Position numbers and translations under genes: made by a program | The notes under the pieces: generated by a model | What the model was told of the DNA's origin: nothing | Database searches by the model: none | Seen by the model: only the letters and a program-made list of their open reading frames with translations | Shown here: positions 1,905 to 53,474 of the stretch, piece by piece | Numbering within the stretch: the stretch's first letter is position 1 | Layout: every line of letters starts with the position of its first letter | Source of the DNA: Hexactinellida sp. DTS-2022 | Taxonomy: Eukaryota > Porifera > Hexactinellida | Direction of reading: 5' to 3' | Assembly: GCA_028753945.1 (NCBI GenBank) | Contig: JAPNXP010000001.1 | Span: forward strand, 14,870,501-14,934,500 | Length of the DNA: 64,000 bases

Positions 1905-2862
1905 CAGAAAAGCGCAATTGTTGTGTTTGTTTGTGTGTTTGTCCAGAATTAATTGGAAAGACTACGAGTCCCAGAAAGCTGAAAAATTGTATACAGGGGT
2001 AAGAGAGATATTCACATTTAAAAGTGACAAAATATGTTAGCCAATTAATTGAGAGTTTGTTAGTATGGATCAACTAACTTATTCAATTAGTATAAATAGA
2101 CTGTGCATAATAAAAAGATTTTCTGAGGCTGCAATCTGATTTAGTGAAAATATATTCCTTTAACCAATCAATCATTTGTCTATTCTATTGTATGTTTTTC
2201 TTTTAGTATTATTTGGATTTGAGCTTTCTTATTGTGCAAATGAAATTTATTGAGCTACTAATGGGAGCATTTAAATTTCCCAAACAAATTACATTGTGTA
2301 GCCTTCTTATTAAGGGACTTTATGAGGAAACATTTAATACACCACAGAGATGTATAATTCTCAAGGTTGAAACCGCTCGAACCGAATATCAGTATTCATG
2401 AATAGTTGCCCTACCGAATATTGATACTGATATTCGGTTGCTTCAACCGAATACTGATAATGATAATATTTGGTTACGTCAACCAAATACGAAAACTATG
2501 AATTGATGATATTCGGTTGGTAGAACGAATACGAATACCGATAATCTTTGGTTGCCCTTACCGAATACGAATATACGTAATTTGAATATTCGGATGGAAA
2601 AACTAATATGAATACTGATAATATTCGCTCGGGAGACCGAATACCGAATAATGATATTCGTTTGGGCAACCGAATACTGAATAATGATATCAGGTTGGCA
2701 ACCGAATATATATCAACCAAATATATCAGTATTCGGTTGCAACCTTGAATAAATAAAATAATTAATTCTAAATGATTAGTTTCAAGGCGTAGTAAGGCCG
2801 CGCATTGAGGGGTGAAGCGCCGAACAGTCCAAAGCGACCGAGACCGAAGGGCTCGTACTATT
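1905..2862 (+). mobile_element. non-autonomous interspersed element, (GTTTG)n 5' block and GAAGGGCTCGT 3' end
   Basis: The 5' block reads GCGCAATTGTTGTG, a GTTTG-rich microsatellite and GTCCAGAATTAATTGGAAAG. The 3' block ends GACCGAGACCGAAGGGCTCGT at about 2862. Another copy lies in reverse orientation at 47530-47740 plus 51117-51400. That copy lacks the insertion at 2362-2747 and so shows the empty site. The 5' and 3' blocks are shared with the other interspersed elements in the window. Confidence 0.6.
2362..2747. mobile_element. MITE made of ACCGAATA/TATTCGGT motifs, nested insertion
   Basis: The ends are CAAGGTTGAAACCG and CGGTTGCAACCTTG. The interior is an array of degenerate short motifs around CCGAATATTCGG. 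Comparison with the reverse copy near 47575 shows host sequence joined directly across this point (GTTAATTCTAAATG), so the whole block is an insertion. The flanks ATAATTCT (2354-2361) and TTAATTCT (2762-2769) look like an imperfect 8-bp duplication. Confidence 0.65.
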
Positions 2863-46324: not shown

Positions 46325-47243
46325 ATATTATTAAATCTCGATTGTTGTGTGTTTGTGTGTGTGTTTGTTTGTTTGTCCGGATTGTATTAAAGTGATGGGG
46401 GAATAGAAACCGCATTTATTTATGAGATATAAACTAACTGTCAAATGTTATAATAGGTAAACAAGTATGCTGAACACGAATTTCGCGTTTATAAATTTCT
46501 AATATAAATATTTGTTGTTGTTTACACAAAATAGGTAAACAAATTAATGAAAATTCAAAATCAACCTAGAAGTTAGCTTCCAACGGGTATTATTGGTAAA
46601 CAAGTATGCTAAACACGAATTTCGCATTTATAAATTTATAATATAAATATTTGTTGTTGTTGTTTACACAAAATAGGTAAACAAATTAATTAAAATTCAA
46701 AATCAACCTAGAAGTTAGCTTTCAACGGGTATTATTGGTAAACAAGTATGCTGAACACGAATTTCGCGTTTATAAATTTCTCATATTAATATTTGTTGTT
46801 GTTGTTTACACAAAATAGGTAAACAAATTAATTAAAATTCAAAATCAACCTAGAAGTTAGCTTCCAACGGGTATTATAGGTAAACAAGTATGCCGAACAC
46901 GAATTTCGCGTTTATAAATTTATAATATTAATATTTGTTGTTGTTGTTTACACAAAATAGGTAAACAAATTAATGAAAATTCAAAATCAACCTAGAAGTT
47001 AGCTTCCAACGGGTATTATAAGTAAACAAGTATGCTGAACACGAATTTCGCATTTATAAAATTCTAATATGAGTATTTGTTGTTGTTGTTGTTTACACAA
47101 ATAGGTAAACAAATTAATGAAAATTAGAAAGATATCTAGCATTTCCATGGTAGAAAATGTGAGGAGTAAGGCCGCTCAGCGGCCGTTAACTAGAGGTGCG
47201 TAGCACCGATCTGTCGCAAAGCGACCGAGACCGAAGGGCTCGT
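46325..47243 (+). mobile_element. interspersed element with five 142-bp core units
   Basis: 5' block AAATCTCGATTGTTGTGTGT plus a GTTTG tract and GATTGTATTAAAGTGATGGG. Core units start at 46456, 46595, 46737, 46879 and 47021 (period 139-142). The 3' block holds the hairpin GGCCGCTCAGCGGCC and ends GACCGAGACCGAAGGGCTCG T. This 5' microsatellite / tandem core / 3' hairpin layout resembles Helentron-derived elements (DINE-1/HINE, bivalve Pearl). Confidence 0.75.
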
Positions 47244-47244
47244 A

Positions 47245-47530
47245 ATAATTAATTCCCACGTGACGTCATAAACCATATTTCATGTTGTCTTACCATCTAA
47301 AATTGTGGGCCAATCGGATAAGAACAGAAAGAGTTATTCCCAGATAAGTGTCTTTATGAAGTAATAGTCCCGCTATTTTGTTTCAAAAACCAATAGATCG
47401 TTGTCAGCGTATTAAATTAGCCTTGCATGCAAATTTTCAGATCTCTAGAGCTTGTGGTGTTTCCAATCAATTCTGGACAAACACACAAACACACACACAC
47501 ACACACACACAACAATCGAAATTTAATAAT
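47245..47530 (-). mobile_element. interspersed element of the 24088-24465 type, inverted
   Basis: It shares TGACGTCA, CAATAGATCGTTGTCAGCGT and CAGATCTCTAGAGCTTGTGG with that copy, and ends in a CACACAC tract and AACAATCGAAATTTAATAAT. Its 5' end abuts the 3' end of the next element without spacer. Confidence 0.65.
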
Positions 47531-47740
47531 ACGAGCCCTTCGTACTACGCCTTGAAACTAATCATTTAGAATTAACATCTTTGGGTGTATTAAATATATT
47601 CCTCATAGATAAGAATGCTATACAATGTAATTTGTGTTTGGAAATTCAAATTCTCATATTAATAGCTCAAAAATTTCAGTTTCACGATAAGGAAGCTCGA
47701 ATCCAAATAATACTAAAGAAAAATATGCAATAGAATAGAC

Positions 47741-47949
47741 CAGTGTTCGGCAACTTGGTTTCTCGGTGGTCCACTTTACAATAACAAAATGTCATGTGGC
47801 CCAGGTTTAATTTACATGAGTATTGTTTTTGTTACATGAGTATTGTTTTTGTTTCCCACAATATAAACATGTCAGAAGTTTCATGAGGCCCATACAAAAT
47901 AGCCTCGCGGCCTACAATTGGGTCGCGGCCCGCTGGTTTCCGATCACTG
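47741..47949 (+). mobile_element. hAT-type MITE, left copy of the unit
   Basis: The left end is CAGTGTTCGGCAACTTGG; the right end is CTGGTTTCCGATCACTG. The body (GGCCCATACAAAATAGCCTC) matches the right copy closely and has a short internal duplication (TACATGAGTATTGTTTTTGT). Confidence 0.9.
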
Positions 47950-47999
47950 TGTTATAGCATTTTTATTAAGCATTAATTAATTGAGCAAAATGTGACCAA

Positions 48000-49259
48000 T
48001 TATGCAGAAAATATTTGGAGTCCAAATTTGTTGTTTTGGGATACACATACGAGTTTGTTGTTGTTGTTGTTGATTACTAGGCCAGTAGGAGAGGAAAACA
48101 ATCCAGCTTCATGTCCTGGTCTCCCTATGGTGTGTAGTAGGTCTCCTTCTGGAGAGAATACCTTGATATTGTGTCCGTAGTTGTTGCTAATGACGATGTT
48201 ATTGAGTTTGTCCAAACAGAAGAATAATGGGTATTTCACTTGCATTCCATTACCACTGGTAACTAGGGAGCGGGACTTCTCTCCTGATAGTGTAAACACG
48301 TGGATACAGGGATTGTCTACACGGCTTAACACAAACATTTCATTTATTGTGAACTTAACATCAACAGGTTCTGTCATAGTTTGATGTCGAAGCGAGTCTT
48401 GGAAAGCTAGATCTGTGGACAGGATTTGTATTCTGTTGTTGGATTCATCTGGCACGTAGAGGCGTTGATTGGGAGAGATGGCGAGTTGTCTCGGATAATT
48501 GAACTCTTCATTTCCAGACCCTTCCTTCCCTACTCGCTTTACCATTGTGAGATCTGGAAGCTTGTATAGGAAGATAGCGTGTTGGCCTATGTCCGTGACA
48601 TAAATGTTACCCTGATGGACTAATATGCCCCATGGCAATATCAAGTGTTGATGTCCGAATTCGTTGAGACAGTCTCCTGTCTCTGATAATATTTGAATTC
48701 TTTCGTTGCTCATTTCCGCCACATAAATGTGTCCGGATTCCGTATCGATTGAGACACCTTTTGGCCATTTAAACTCTCCAGTAGCTCTTCCTTTTTTCCC
48801 AACAGCAACTATAGGCTGTTGGAATGTGGCATAGTTTGGTATCGCTGACACAGGAGGGATGGGAGGAGTCTCGAGTTGTAGAATCTCTCCCAGACGGGAG
48901 ATACGTTCCTCTAGGTCCCGTGTGTCGCAGAGGTAGCTCACTTCTTGAGGTGGTGCTGCCACTTGCATTTCTGCCATTTTCGCTTCCAAATCTGTGACCA
49001 TTTTCCCTTGAAAGGAATGCAGCAAATTGTGCGTCATTTGGCCTTCCAAAAATGCGCGGGTTTCGGTTATTTGTTGGTGTATTTGTTGTCGCGCCACCCG
49101 ATTGGCTCCCATTTCCTCCCGTCTGTCCCTTAAGTCGGTCAACAGCTGGTGCCTTCTCTGCTCGAGAGAGCGTATCAACCTGTCTATCGATTCATTGATT
49201 TGTATCGACACGGGGTCTACGATTGGCACTGGGATTAGCTCAGGTATTTGAGTCGCCAT
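48000..49259 (-). CDS. coiled-coil plus NHL-repeat protein (MATQIPEL type), copy 2
   Basis: 419 codons from ATG 49259 to TAA, intronless and undamaged. Residues 1-140 are coiled coil (RLIRSLEQRRHQLLTDLRD); residues about 150-419 form the NHL propeller (GVSIDTESGHIYVAEMSNER and later GRPGHEAGLFSSPTGLVINN). It is a close paralogue of 34070-35320 with in-frame differences only, including an extra Asn and a two-residue C-terminal extension (FSA). No RING, B-box or signal peptide. It lies inside the MITE-bounded unit, so it has probably moved as cargo. The propeller ligand is unknown. Confidence 0.85.
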   Translation of the reverse strand: MATQIPELIPVPIVDPVSIQINESIDRLIRSLEQRRHQLLTDLRDRREEMGANRVARQQIHQQITETRAFLEGQMTHNLLHSFQGKMVTDLEAKMAEMQVAAPPQEVSYLCDTRDLEERISRLGEILQLETPPIPPVSAIPNYATFQQPIVAVGKKGRATGEFKWPKGVSIDTESGHIYVAEMSNERIQILSETGDCLNEFGHQHLILPWGILVHQGNIYVTDIGQHAIFLYKLPDLTMVKRVGKEGSGNEEFNYPRQLAISPNQRLYVPDESNNRIQILSTDLAFQDSLRHQTMTEPVDVKFTINEMFVLSRVDNPCIHVFTLSGEKSRSLVTSGNGMQVKYPLFFCLDKLNNIVISNNYGHNIKVFSPEGDLLHTIGRPGHEAGLFSSPTGLVINNNNNKLVCVSQNNKFGLQIFSA

Positions 49260-49532
49260 TTGTGTTTTTTTAATCTTTACTTGTTTGTTTCAGTATATTT
49301 ATTATCTTACAATTTAGGATATCTTTATACTTTGCTTGCTAGTTATGTAATATGGAATTAATTCATATTAAGTCAGCACACATTTCTGATTAGAAAGTGT
49401 ATTATAATTATCTCATTTTCATTATTCCATCATTATTTTATGCGGCATAGTTAATACTATAATTATTTGAGCAAGTATTATAATTTGTGAATGCTTTTTG
49501 CCTAAATATACGTACAATGGTTGGGTAAAAAT

Positions 49533-50237
49533 CACAGGCGGCGCAAGCACTGCGAGCATTGCGAGCATGCTCGCACCTATATTTTCTCAGAAAATTTGGG
49601 CCTAACGATTTCCAAGGGCATCAACTGCATTTGTGATCATAATATTAAGATATTCTATTTGGGTTAAATAGATACAGTAGACTACGCTTAATAGAGCAAC
49701 TGGTTAATCGGATCAACCTGACTAATCGGGTCACTTGGCTAGAAGTAGAAACATGTAAATAGTGTTAAATTCCTCCGTTAATCGGGCCAACAGCTTTATT
49801 CCGCTTAATTGGCTCAAAATGGCCTGAACCCGACTCCCAAATTCCCAATGTGACCCTAATAAGCGGAATATTCTGTAAATTCTGTATTTACTATATTAAT
49901 AGTCACTTATGCAGCTATTATTTGGGCCTATTTTCTGTTTACAAATGATTTTGGCACATTAGAAAGTGTTAAATGAATTTATCGCAAAGAAGAGCTACCG
50001 GTCACAATTGTTGCGAATTTCTAATTGTATTGATCATGAATGTATAAGTAATTATTTAAACCTACTTAGAACTCTTACTGTGTGTTTCGTGTATTACAAA
50101 ATCTGTATTACAAAATTTTAAATATATTGCATTGATTTATTAAAAGAAAATTAATTTAAATTACACAGAATTTAAAGAAAATTTGGGCCTAAATGAGGAG
50201 TGCTCGCACCAACATCGAAATGCTTCCGCCGCCACTG
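49533..50237. mobile_element. hAT-like non-autonomous element, perfect duplication GTAAAAAT
   Basis: The left end CACAGGCGGCGCAAGCA and right end TGCTTCCGCCGCCACTG pair with three mismatches. GTAAAAAT lies on both sides (49525-49532, 50238-50245). Subterminal GCTCGCACC and TTTGGGCCTAA are inverted repeats. It holds a nested TA-flanked MITE. Confidence 0.85.
49675..49875. mobile_element. pogo/Tigger-like MITE nested in the hAT-like element
   Basis: CAGTAGACTACGCTTAATAG at the left, CCTAATAAGCGGAATATTCTG at the right, TA on both sides. Internal GTTAATCGG motifs. Confidence 0.7.
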
Positions 50238-50922
50238 GTAAAAATAGGCTTGTCCAAGTTTCAGATTTTAAATAGTTAATTATTGCTATTTAGATTCTGT
50301 TCATAACTTCATAGTTAATCCTATCCAAATTTGGCTACGAACAGTGACCTTACTTTGAAAGTAGGTGTAATATTGGAAATAATGACAATATTCGTACGGG
50401 AGTGAAATCTGACGCGGTCGGTCCAATCAAGACAAACTAGATTTCAACTAACAGTGGTCTTACCTCATAATTATTTATGAAGGAATATTTTAGTTATTCT
50501 GCTATGCAAATACAGTCAGGTCTGCTTATTGAGAACAATTTGCATAAATTCTGGTAAAGACTATTCAAATTTCAAAAAAATTAGATTTAGACATGGTTCT
50601 TTACTCTCTATCAATTCAATCATAAAATTATTTTTTTCAAAAATTTTGATGATGACGTAACATAAAAGTGACATCTGCCACTTCGATGCCACATTAATTA
50701 TCGAAGAGAAAATGTAAAATTTGGGCTGTGCTAATCAGTGTTGTAAAGCAATTAAATGTATTTTGTACCTTTTTGAGATATTTGGTGGTGTAATTATAAA
50801 ATTGTTGGACAAATGAGGCATTTGTTTGGTAGGTTTGTTGGTTGTCGGTTTTAGTCAGTGAAATGATAATTTATGTTTGTAGTAGCATTCAACCTAACTG
50901 GTAACATTCGATTGTGTTATAG

Positions 50923-51116
50923 CAGTATTCGGCAACTTGGTTTCTCGGTGGCCCACTTTACAAGAACAAAATGTCATGTAGCCCAGGTTTAATTTACATT
51001 AGTAGTGTTTTTGTTTTACGGTCCACAATATAAACATGTCAGAAGTTTCATGAGGCCCATACAAAATAGCCTCGCGGCCCACAATTGGGTCGAGGCCCAC
51101 TGGTTGCCGATCACTG
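50923..51116 (+). mobile_element. hAT-type MITE, right copy of the unit
   Basis: CAGTATTCGGCAACTTGG to CTGGTTGCCGATCACTG. Same orientation as the left copy. Confidence 0.9.
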
Positions 51117-51663
51117 GAATAGACAAATGATTGATTGGTTAAATGAATATATTTTCACTAAATCAGATTGCAGCCTCAGAAAATCTTTCTATTATGCACA
51201 GTCTATTTATACTAATTGAATGAAGTATAGCTAATCCATACTAACAAACCCTCAAATTTAATTGGCTAATATATTTTGTCACCTTTAAATGTGAATATTT
51301 CTCTTAAAAAACAATAGATCGTTGTCGCAGTACAAAATTACCCCTGTATACAAATTTTCAGCTTTCTGGGACTCGTAGTCTTTCCAATTAATTCTGGATT
51401 ATATAATATAGCGATTCACTTGAGACAATAGCTAATAGTATAGTAGTTTACTGATACTTAGCAGCACTGGGCGTTCCAATCCATTTCAAAGTGACACCTA
51501 GCAACTGAAATACTAATGTAAGAAATAAAACATGTGCGGATATGAATACAATCGATTGGATAAATAAATAAATAAAAAAGTCAATTCAACATACATTATA
51601 ACTACTACACAAGCACACAAACTAAAAGATATAGAAAGATTCAATTCAAACCAGAAATCATGA

Positions 51664-52899
51664 TTAGAACATCTGAATACAATGTCCAGGGTTTCGAGAC
51701 ACAACTATAACTCTACCTTCTCTGTCCGTAGCTATCCCAGTAGGAGAGATAAGGTCTCCTCTTCCCTCTCCTCTCTTCCCAAACTTGTGTAGCAGTTCTC
51801 CGCTGATAGAGAATATGAGAACAGAATTAGCTGAGAAGTCAGTCAATAGAATATTGAAATCTCTGTCGAGACAGAAGCAATAAGGGCAAATCACTTGATT
51901 ACCTTCTCCTTTCGTTATTATCTCTCTAATTAGCTGATGAGAGTAGTCATATAAACGAATGCATGGATTTCCAAATGCCAGTACAACGATAATTTGTGGA
52001 GTTAGCTTGATATCAATCGGAAAGCTACAATTAGGAATGAATGTATTGAAAGTTAAATCCAAATTCAAACATTGAATGCGATTGTTGTTCAAGTCACAAA
52101 TGTAAAAAAGATTCCTCACAGTTGATATAGCTATTCCACTTGGATTTTGAAATTCCATTTCTTTCTTGCCTCCTCTCCCAACTGACTGTATGTATCTACC
52201 TTCGGTAGAGTATACAGTGATATAATTAGCTCCATACTGTGTGACATATACTTTGTTAAGATGGATACAGACACCAGTTGGTTCATCCATCTTCTCACTG
52301 AAAGCGAATAAAAATTCAAAACATTCAGTAAAGACTTGTACCCGATTATTACCGTCATCACAAATATACATAACATTCGTTTGCGAGTCAATAGCAATTG
52401 AACCAGGCCATTTGAACTCTCCAGGAGTTGGAGTGGTATCGTCTCTATGTTTCCCAGCTACCTTTATAGGATTTCCTTTCTCCTTGTAGTCCGCTTCTCC
52501 TCTCACTCGAATCGATCCTGTCCTACTCAGTATTCCTTCTAGGTTTGTATCCCACTCCAGCTCCACTCGTCTCATCCTATCTCTAGCTGTCTCCAGACTA
52601 GCTTCTAGCTCTCTCATGCGGGCATCCAACTGTGCTATAATCTGTTGGAGAAACTCTTGATTTTCATTATCCGTAAGAGTAGCAATGTTTTGCTCTTTCG
52701 TTATTCTCAGCTGATCAATCTGTTTACCAACTTCCTCTCCCCTGTAGACATCCTCTAGCTGCTGCAGCTCTGACAGCAGTGCTGTCTCTCTCTCTCGCAG
52801 CACCTGATGAGCTCTGGCTACTCTCTCCCGTAGCTCTACTCGCACCCTCTCTATCTGTGTCAGGAATGGATTCTCTGCTGGCACATTAGCACTAGCCAT
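51664..52899 (-). CDS. coiled-coil plus NHL-repeat protein (MASANV type), copy 1
   Basis: 411 codons from ATG 52899 to TAA, intronless. Residues 1-125 are a coiled coil (VRVELRERVARAHQVLRERE, LQQLEDVYRGEEVGKQIDQL). Residues about 140-411 are six NHL blades with repeated signatures such as MYICDDGNNRVQVF, KVYVTQYGANYITVYSTEG, LFYICDLNNNRIQCLNLDL and GEGRGDLISPTGIATDREGR. No RING, B-box or membrane segment. The gene and both flanks are duplicated at 58.9-61.5 kb and 62.0-63.5 kb. Function unknown; the domain pattern suggests a cytoplasmic binding protein or adaptor. Confidence 0.87.
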   Translation of the reverse strand: MASANVPAENPFLTQIERVRVELRERVARAHQVLRERETALLSELQQLEDVYRGEEVGKQIDQLRITKEQNIATLTDNENQEFLQQIIAQLDARMRELEASLETARDRMRRVELEWDTNLEGILSRTGSIRVRGEADYKEKGNPIKVAGKHRDDTTPTPGEFKWPGSIAIDSQTNVMYICDDGNNRVQVFTECFEFLFAFSEKMDEPTGVCIHLNKVYVTQYGANYITVYSTEGRYIQSVGRGGKKEMEFQNPSGIAISTVRNLFYICDLNNNRIQCLNLDLTFNTFIPNCSFPIDIKLTPQIIVVLAFGNPCIRLYDYSHQLIREIITKGEGNQVICPYCFCLDRDFNILLTDFSANSVLIFSISGELLHKFGKRGEGRGDLISPTGIATDREGRVIVVSRNPGHCIQMF

Positions 52900-53474
52900 C
52901 TTGTGTAACTTGATTCTAACTAGAGTATTCCTATCATTACAGATATAAATACTAAATTACGATATTAAATTCAGCCTAATTCCTAGTCAACTTAATCTAC
53001 TAAAGCGGACAGTAGTATTTGAACCACTCTATGCATAATTACTGCTAATTTTCATATTTAGCTTTAGGGGTTGTGCAGTTAATTTCGCTCATTTAGTGCA
53101 AGTATTCCATTTTTCACGTTCGATAAATTATCTTACAATCTAGAACTTGGAAGTTGGAACTAACAAAATACTTAATAATCTGTATTGTCTAGTTATCTTG
53201 TCGAATATGACGGACTTAAATATTCATTTTTCAAGCTTGTAGAAGAATAGAAGAACAAACTACAGAAACTAGTATACGTATATATATTACGCAATAAGTT
53301 GAATACCTATTAGCTATTCGTACAGTTTATTATAGCCTGCACGAATGGCTAATACGCGTTCTCTTCTTCAAAACTCTAAAATATATCGAAATATCGATGT
53401 GATTTCATCCGAGATTCTACTGTTGATCAGTTCGCTTCATATCGAATCCATGCGAAAATTAATTCTGTAGTGTT
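52900..53474. other. 5' flank of NHL copy, duplicated
   Basis: Matches 60440-61140 (AAATTCAGCCTAATTCCTAG, CTACTAAAGCGGA), so it belongs to the duplicated module. No gene seen. Confidence 0.6.

Follow-up and report, generated by a model that had tools for sequence, protein, structure and literature searches.

An NHL-repeat gene and two sibling hAT MITEs in a glass sponge genome: probable movement as one composite transposon

How did a host gene come to lie between two short hAT elements whose adjoining octamers pair across the whole block and not across each element? The window, i.e. the whole stretch of 64,000 nucleotides that was analysed, harbours a MITE-NHL-MITE unit (U1) on contig C1, with the order GAATAGAC-MITE-TGTTATAG-[NHL segment]-TGTTATAG-MITE-GAATAGAC, exact to the base. 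An earlier note had described this pattern, in which outer octamer equals outer and inner equals inner around two MITEs, and its coordinates and ends proved correct throughout. All comparisons below come from one genome assembly, in which a second such unit (U2) is also found on C1. They suggest that the MITE pair and the NHL gene probably moved together as one composite (macro-) hAT transposon. The features of U1 and its cargo are as follows.

47733..47740, + strand: left outer target-site duplication (GAATAGAC), found once at the aligned position in three uninterrupted repeat copies
47741..47949, + strand: left MITE, a nonautonomous hAT of 209 bp (CAGTG...CACTG), one of 24 copies in the genome
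47950..47957, + strand: left inner octamer (TGTTATAG); U2 has an identical octamer at the equivalent place
47950..49344, + strand: cargo part B, the NHL gene region; four MITE-free copies have part A immediately before it
48000..49259, − strand: NHL-repeat gene frame, intact and intronless, 419 aa (Pfam NHL, E 5.4e-20)
49260..49532, + strand: gene-upstream DNA, first piece, ending in the left 8-base GTAAAAAT duplication of a later insertion
49533..50237, + strand: later hAT-like insertion of 705 bp in the cargo, with GTAAAAAT on either side (49525-49532 and 50238-50245)
50238..50820, + strand: gene-upstream DNA, second piece (Bup), starting with the right 8-base GTAAAAAT duplication and reaching to the B|A joint
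50821..50922, + strand: cargo part A, found on the opposite side of the gene (A|B) in four MITE-free copies
50915..50922, + strand: right inner octamer (TGTTATAG)
50923..51116, + strand: right MITE, 194 bp, in the same orientation as the left one
51117..51124, + strand: right outer target-site duplication (GAATAGAC)

The evidence from the octamers is their position, abutting the MITE ends; the count of either in the window is by itself unremarkable (GAATAGAC, 4 against 2.4 expected; TGTTATAG, 3 against 3.8 expected). At the local base composition, two unrelated octamers match at all eight positions with a chance of about 2.4e-5. Two such matches occur in U1, and the outer pair of U2 provides a third independent one; the inner pair of U2 is inherited and so is not counted.

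The MITEs themselves have the properties of a nonautonomous hAT family. Short terminal inverted repeats starting with CAGTG are typical of hAT elements, and both MITE ends carry a repeat of this kind, CAGTGNTCGGCAAC. Its exact matches in the genome number 34, of which 20 make up ten inverted pairs (nine 176-204 bp long and one of 951 bp). The 8-bp target duplications expected of such elements are seen at most of the 20 family copies outside the units: 11 have identical octamers and five are one base off, with none found at the other four. In both units, two elements of this family in direct orientation enclose host DNA.

The genome search for further MITE-NHL-MITE units that the earlier note called for yielded one, U2. 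It lies at C1:14744577-14749663, about 169 kb from U1 and inverted relative to it, so that the block is present at more than one site, as a macrotransposon requires. Its cargo is of the same kind and its inner octamers are again TGTTATAG; the outer duplication is CACTAGAG, different from the GAATAGAC of U1. Since this second unit has its own target duplication on the same contig, the two MITEs and the gene very probably moved as one large composite transposon. The claim that an intact gene was carried to a new site holds for U1; it fails for U2, where the cargo has further insertions and the NHL reading frame is broken.

The surroundings of the two units are also distinct. Their immediate flanks are unrelated over the 1 kb compared on each side, which, together with the differing outer octamers, rules out U2 as a segmental duplicate of U1 plus surroundings. 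The sole match between masked flanks is an inverted one of 68 bp, in a gene of the NHL family at the unit-distal end of the right flanks; without masking, additional short-repeat matches of 23-39 bp appear. To the right of both units lies an NHL gene of another subfamily, in opposite relative orientation:

51667-52956: NHL gene frame right of U1, other subfamily, with its 3' end towards U1
L039 1176-2411: NHL gene right of U2, other subfamily, with its 5' end towards U2

The distance from U2 to this next gene is 166 bp.

If the whole block inserted as one piece, its border should be one target duplication that is single in an empty site. U1 interrupts an interspersed repeat, and an uninterrupted copy of this lies in the window itself:

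1905..2862, − strand: uninterrupted copy of the repeat hit by U1, with GAATAGAC once, at 2178-2185, the aligned position

This agrees with the earlier reading of that copy as carrying the outer octamer once. Two more uninterrupted copies (L043 and L044) likewise have GAATAGAC once at the aligned position; L044 has another GAATAGAC 0.8 kb away from it. For U2, one uninterrupted copy of the site has CACTAGAG once (L072, 91%), and another has CACTAGTG, with one mismatch (L073, 80%). Each block is thus bordered by a duplication that is single in uninterrupted sites, which are paralogous, not allelic.

The U1 cargo consists of the NHL gene and its surroundings. The gene has named relatives in the glass sponge Oopsacas minuta. 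After the stop of the gene frame there are 42 bp. The gene-upstream DNA measures 1.7 kb today and about 1 kb without the 705-bp insertion, which is absent from U2 and from locus L046 and has a second copy at C1:5217496-5218212 (89%). Bup is common to L046, L070 and, in part, L069. Pairwise dN/dS between the U1 gene and the four copies in A|B order is 0.69-0.83, a weak result from which no conclusion on selection is drawn.

This cargo is not arranged as in the four MITE-free copies, where part A is found on the opposite side of the gene, so that the U1 segment is permuted head to tail. Both joints of such an arrangement exist without a MITE. Four loci have A|B, which reads ATTGTGTTATAGCATTTT at C1:17.144 Mb and differs little from this at three places on C15; two loci on C1, L069 and L070, have B|A. 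A search with the B|A joint gave 13 matches; apart from U1 and U2, two fragments that lack the gene are the only ones to cover the joint well. In the fragment near C1:14048783, the 2 kb upstream have no match to window positions 47000-52500; near C1:14101542, gene-upstream DNA is present, with no gene in the stretch read. In a tree of 19 B regions, the cargoes of U1 and U2 are sisters (support 0.999), and together with the four A|B-order copies they form one clade (support 1.000).

The earlier note had proposed that a MITE-segment-MITE unit from a tandem array moved as one piece. Movement in one piece is strongly supported by the different outer duplication of U2, the uninterrupted paralogous sites and the two kinds of MITE-free head-to-tail joint. 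A search for a tandem array of the NHL segment found none; with no locus reading B-A-B in a row, the array is deduced from the two kinds of half-joint. The donor locus sought alongside it, TGTTATAG-MITE-TGTTATAG, is likewise absent, as none of the 24 MITE copies has TGTTATAG on both sides. An old donor locus could have been lost since, and parts of the genome may be missing from the assembly.

The four unit MITEs share one base that sets them apart. At position 6 of the left end, all four have T and the remaining 22 of 26 family ends have G, a count restricted to the 22-base family list, which does not contain two ends on C9 that are exact over 14 bp and have T at position 6, and leaving aside the CAGTGTTCCGCAAC places, which differ at position 9. 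A base common to the four and absent from 22 other ends indicates descent from one MITE. The left and right MITEs differ at 15/194 positions in U1 and at 2/175 in U2; the U1 pair is clearly the more diverged. An 18-bp stretch of the right MITE of U2 is missing from the left one; deletion between direct repeats explains this loss, and exchange with a short-form family member may be an alternative source of the gap.

Taken together, these observations are most probably explained by a sequence of three steps. A nonautonomous hAT of about 176-209 bp would have inserted at TGTTATAG, the A|B joint of a head-to-tail NHL-gene arrangement. Unequal exchange, a tandem duplication or a circle would next have repeated the MITE-carrying unit head to tail, so that MITE-TGTTATAG-[B-Bup-A]-TGTTATAG-MITE arose. 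Finally, a hAT transposase acting in trans would have treated the two outer ends, left on the left MITE and right on the right MITE, as those of one element. In this way the block in its entirety, including the gene and some 1 kb of upstream DNA, would have reached new sites; each insertion would have made its own 8-bp duplication, GAATAGAC for U1 and CACTAGAG for U2. We infer the array as source, the order of the first two steps and the transposase from the products. A circle may have been an intermediate in making the head-to-tail unit.

Candidate relatives of an autonomous partner are two decayed copies, L067 and L068, which share the first 70-84 bp of the MITE and have transposase remains inside. 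A hAT dimerisation domain occupies C10:3200659-3200829, 409 bp inwards from the end of L067; such domains are abundant in the genome (150 places scored out of 638 candidates). The interior of L068 includes a GTF2IRD2/ZBED5-like piece: a protein search with the L068 pieces returned names of this type, comparison with Pfam gave nothing convincing, and there was no match among solved structures. The top protein match of L068 (87%), labelled Escherichia coli on a 525-base contig, is taken for contamination. The right end of L068 was not found within the about 4 kb followed. No full-length autonomous element occurs among the 34 exact-end matches in the genome, nor among the matches listed of 345 with one mismatch in the end.

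Other routes to the same structure have to be weighed against movement as one composite element. The octamer pattern would equally be produced by homologous recombination between a circle, made up of TGTTATAG-MITE-TGTTATAG-[cargo], and a single MITE already resident between two copies of GAATAGAC, as the earlier note had also envisaged. Circular hAT forms have been reported (PMC2803484), and both joints of the segment exist, as they would in a circle. Two units call for two such events, however, at two resident MITEs (in GAATAGAC and CACTAGAG) of a family with 24 found copies, and both resident left ends would need the T at position 6, seen in 0/22 other ends. The outer ends thus do not look like those of another resident copy, although in a variant of the model the resident may be a recent copy of the same MITE. 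Two independent events and a rare base make recombination with a resident MITE much less likely than a composite move, and we consider it very improbable.

A less remote option is a Composite Insertion by replication-coupled alternative transposition of the type described for Ac/fAc in maize, the product then moving again as a macrotransposon. In this model, one reaction where the MITE originally lay exchanges the order of its two flanks, fuses them at a new joint and sets them between two MITE copies elsewhere. The change from A-MITE-B to MITE-B|A-MITE fits, and TTTGTTT/TTTATTT microhomology is present at the B|A joint. Against this, the joint is also found without a MITE at L069 and L070 and so was probably not made by transposition; moreover, in maize the reaction involves two elements close together whose ends are reversed; here a single MITE would have to serve. 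This origin is therefore unlikely. Two MITEs may well insert near one gene, but simple independent insertions are ruled out, as the octamers to the left and right of each unit MITE disagree at 4-5 of 8 positions and match only as outer/outer and inner/inner. Adding gene conversion of the octamers hardly helps: coincidental octamers (about 2.4e-5 per unrelated pair) and an identical A|B breakpoint on both sides would still be needed. Misassembly is opposed by the second unit at an unrelated site, and neither of these is a credible account.

If U1 and U2 moved as composite elements, an early-branching animal offers two natural cases in which a single block, composed of sibling MITEs and a host gene unit, was inserted, and uninterrupted paralogous sites exist for both. 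On this evidence, hAT elements that are nonautonomous and very short seem able to act as ends for moving whole genes; whole-block movement between hAT ends has been described for Ac/Ds in maize (PMC9910405, PMC3260210). The match of outer with outer and inner with inner octamers is a simple signature by which unrecognised composite moves could be sought in other genomes. It is conceivable, if doubtful, that the NHL family spread partly by composite hAT units and head-to-tail or circular intermediates, with MITE-NHL-MITE as a gene-carrying mobile element; such units would then be one source of the large dispersed NHL repertoire of this sponge.

Among known systems, the maize Ac/Ds macrotransposons are similar in that two close hAT elements serve as the ends of one large transposon, which takes the intervening DNA along, with 8-bp duplications. 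Units of 10.3 kb and 28 kb, whose excision leaves a modified 8-bp TSD, are described in one account (PMC9910405), and movement of up to 100 kb in another (PMC3260210). In contrast, the ends of the sponge units are MITEs of less than 210 bp that go back to a single MITE; a complete gene unit, delimited by its own head-to-tail joint, forms the cargo, in a glass sponge genome; and movement is deduced from two copies in one assembly. Maize Composite Insertions, formed by reversed-ends transposition, have switched flanks fused at a new joint between two element copies, an 8-bp TSD and macrotransposon structure (PMC4270019). In the sponge units, too, the order is switched between two element copies and there is an 8-bp TSD, but their B|A joint also exists without a MITE, so that the flank switch need not come from transposition. 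In bacteria, identical MITE copies flank cargo in structures likened to a composite transposon (PMC6382973); there the cargo is integron or plasmid DNA, while the sponge unit joins a eukaryotic hAT MITE to a host gene. Finally, EPSPS of Amaranthus palmeri has MITE-like sequence on both sides with a 3-bp TSD-like motif, and its authors state that they cannot conclude that MITEs caused the amplification (PMC3677901). The sponge gene, too, has a MITE on either side; unlike EPSPS, it lies in a unit that is enclosed as a whole by an 8-bp duplication, at two sites.

The unit at 47741..51116 (U1) carries an NHL gene between two directly oriented MITEs (short nonautonomous hAT elements). The arrangement claimed in the earlier note, GAATAGAC-MITE-TGTTATAG-cargo-TGTTATAG-MITE-GAATAGAC, matches the window exactly:

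47733-47740, outer octamer GAATAGAC, left
47741-47949, left MITE (U1L)
47950-47957, inner octamer TGTTATAG, left
48000-49259, minus strand, NHL gene frame of 419 aa with NHL repeats
49533-50237, hAT-like insertion inside the cargo, 705 bp, GTAAAAAT on each side
50915-50922, inner octamer TGTTATAG, right
50923-51116, right MITE (U1R)
51117-51124, outer octamer GAATAGAC, right

Neither octamer is rare across the 64 kb; they are informative because they lie flush with the MITE ends. The stop codon is 42 bp from the inner octamer, and 1663 bp of upstream DNA precede the start codon, including the 705 bp inserted later. The final 102 bases of the cargo (50821-50922) are here termed A, and the remainder, the gene followed by its upstream DNA (Bup), is termed B.

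The window spans C1:14870501-14934500 of a genome of 112.4 Mb in 18 contigs. A query made of the left MITE and 151 bp of cargo gave 49 candidates in this genome, 40 of which were scored. One further site among these has a MITE adjoining the cargo, and it is a second MITE-NHL-MITE unit (U2), of the kind for which the earlier note proposed a search:

C1:14742001-14752000, reverse strand, locus carrying U2 (L039)
C1:14744577-14749663, U2 block, 5087 bp

U2 reads CACTAGAG-MITE-TGTTATAG-[NHL cargo]-TGTTATAG-MITE-CACTAGAG; the inner octamers and the joint from B into A are identical to those of U1, whereas the outer octamer differs. The units lie 169 kb apart in opposite orientations. The U2 gene frame is interrupted, and its part A is split by another small element, with GGCCATATAAAATAAATAAC termini and duplicated TAA (L039 ~3157-2799, reverse strand). 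The 705-bp insertion is missing in U2 and in L046, a MITE-free cargo copy, and is thus probably younger than the split between U1 and U2.

Over 1 kb per side, the flanks of the two units share a 68-bp inverted match, located distally in the right flanks, inside the NHL gene adjoining each unit; unmasked comparison gave short repeat matches of 23-39 bp. These neighbouring NHL genes have opposite relative orientation, which rules out the flanks being one duplicated region. The neighbour of U1, an open frame at 51667-52956 (minus strand, ~0.54 kb to its right), belongs to the same subfamily as that of U2, a different one from the cargo gene's; a 411-aa NHL frame has its start codon 166 bp beyond the U2 end.

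The joined flanks of U1 are aligned straight through by the window copy at 1905-2862 and by two further loci (L043, L044), with GAATAGAC once at the joint; the outer octamer is indeed single in the copy at 1905-2862, as had been stated. With the joined U2 flanks as query (40 of 173 candidates scored), two copies continue across the joint: C1:14733784-14734057 (91% overall) has CACTAGAG once, with 5 bp missing right beside it, and C2:724033-724390 (80%) has CACTAGTG, with one mismatch. The uninterrupted sites of both units are paralogous copies, not alleles.

In the genome, 24 copies of the MITE were found (all 24 candidates scored), four of them in U1 and U2. Flanking octamers of the other 20 are identical in 11, differ by one base in five and were not found in four; single copies that gave a result thus carry their own octamer pairs and show the pattern of simple hAT insertions. 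This does not hold for the four unit MITEs: the two octamers of each mismatch at 4-5 of 8 positions, while the two outer octamers of a unit match each other, as do the two inner ones. All four have T at left-end position 6, where the other 22 of 26 ends have G (the same pattern read backwards gave 0 matches); judged by this shared T, they very probably descend from one progenitor. Differences amount to 2/175 plus an 18-bp gap between U2L and U2R, 7/193 between U1R and U2R, 9/176 between U1L and U2L, and 15/194 between U1L and U1R, with the excess on U1L.

Three of the five one-mismatch copies are neighbours on C11 (9009881, 9019284 and 9028880; spacing 9.4-9.6 kb) with the same octamers and surroundings 71-89% equal without gaps, as if a segment containing the MITE had been repeated in tandem. 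A family member of 951 bp (L062, C8:2035057-2036007) has exact GTATATGT duplications.

A runs directly into B, with no MITE, at four places:

C15:3546198-3544716, minus strand
C15:3540450-3538957, minus strand
C1:17144193-17142710, minus strand
C15:240268-241754

At the joint the C1 copy has TGTTATAG and the C15 copies have close variants of it, TATTATAG in two and TATTATTG in the third, so that the donor sequence predicted earlier exists in substance. Bup also runs directly into A without a MITE, as in U1 and U2, at C1:14048783 and C1:14101542; both diverge from A beyond its first two thirds, and no NHL gene turned up in the sequence read around them. L046 (C15:240268-242632) has the order A-gene-Bup and both its ends at the B-A joint point, where there is TTTGTTT/TTTATTT microhomology. 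The occurrence of both joints without the MITE suggests that head-to-tail copies, as array or circle, existed independently of it.

Searching with the U1 NHL protein gave 535 matches. Among the 120 listed, the best have 80% identity and the named relatives are all from the glass sponge Oopsacas minuta (best-scoring 64%), which suggests that the genome is that of a glass sponge; the best eight relatives measure 410-419 aa. The gene is one of a large family scattered through the genome, with 685 candidate places at first look, of which 40 were scored; many lie on C1 and C15. A tree built from 19 B regions (that of U1 with the best 18 of 38 other gene-region rows) places U1 and U2 as sisters (support 0.999), differing by 5.6% over 1364 sites; together with the four A-B copies they make up a clade (support 1.000). 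We read this as a MITE-bounded cargo that would have been made in one event and then reached two sites. Bup distances from U1 are 0.095 (U2), 0.083 (L046), and 0.105 and 0.077 (L070 and L069, the two MITE-free loci with the B-A joint), with 0.043 between L069 and L070; the five copies are about equidistant, so this stretch, shorter than B, does not fix their branching order.

Most likely, a MITE would have inserted at TGTTATAG within the A-B joint, the MITE-bearing unit would have duplicated head-to-tail, and the block would then have moved by its outermost MITE ends, as seen at U1 and U2. Recombination of a circle with a resident MITE is disfavoured, since it would have to occur twice, with residents that carry the rare T at position 6. 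Composite Insertion by re-replication is possible: in the relevant passages of PMC4270019 (also PMC9910405) it predicts switched flanks, a new joint and products structured as macrotransposons, but the B-A joint is also present elsewhere without the MITE.

Block transposition would draw on transposase supplied in trans. Two decayed loci, L067 and L068, have the MITE's first 70-84 bp in common (88-93%) and are 89% alike over their first 220 bp. L067 encodes a hAT dimerisation domain (E 3.7e-8) 409 bp inside its end; such domains are common in the genome (150 places scored of 638 candidates). L068 has reverse-strand coding pieces, one of which (221 aa) resembles GTF2IRD2-like and ZBED5-like proteins, which we take to be hAT-derived. 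No intact element with the MITE ends was found by an exact-end genome pattern, nor among the matches listed for a one-mismatch pattern.

No donor locus for either unit was found among the 24 MITE copies, and the matches listed from the open-licence literature include no sibling-MITE pair around a complete host gene in any animal. Composite elements bounded by foldback elements occur in Drosophila. In structure, in target duplication and in the occurrence of the block at two sites, U1 and U2 resemble the Ac/Ds macrotransposons, as these are described in the relevant passages of PMC9910405 and PMC3260210, and they appear to work like them.
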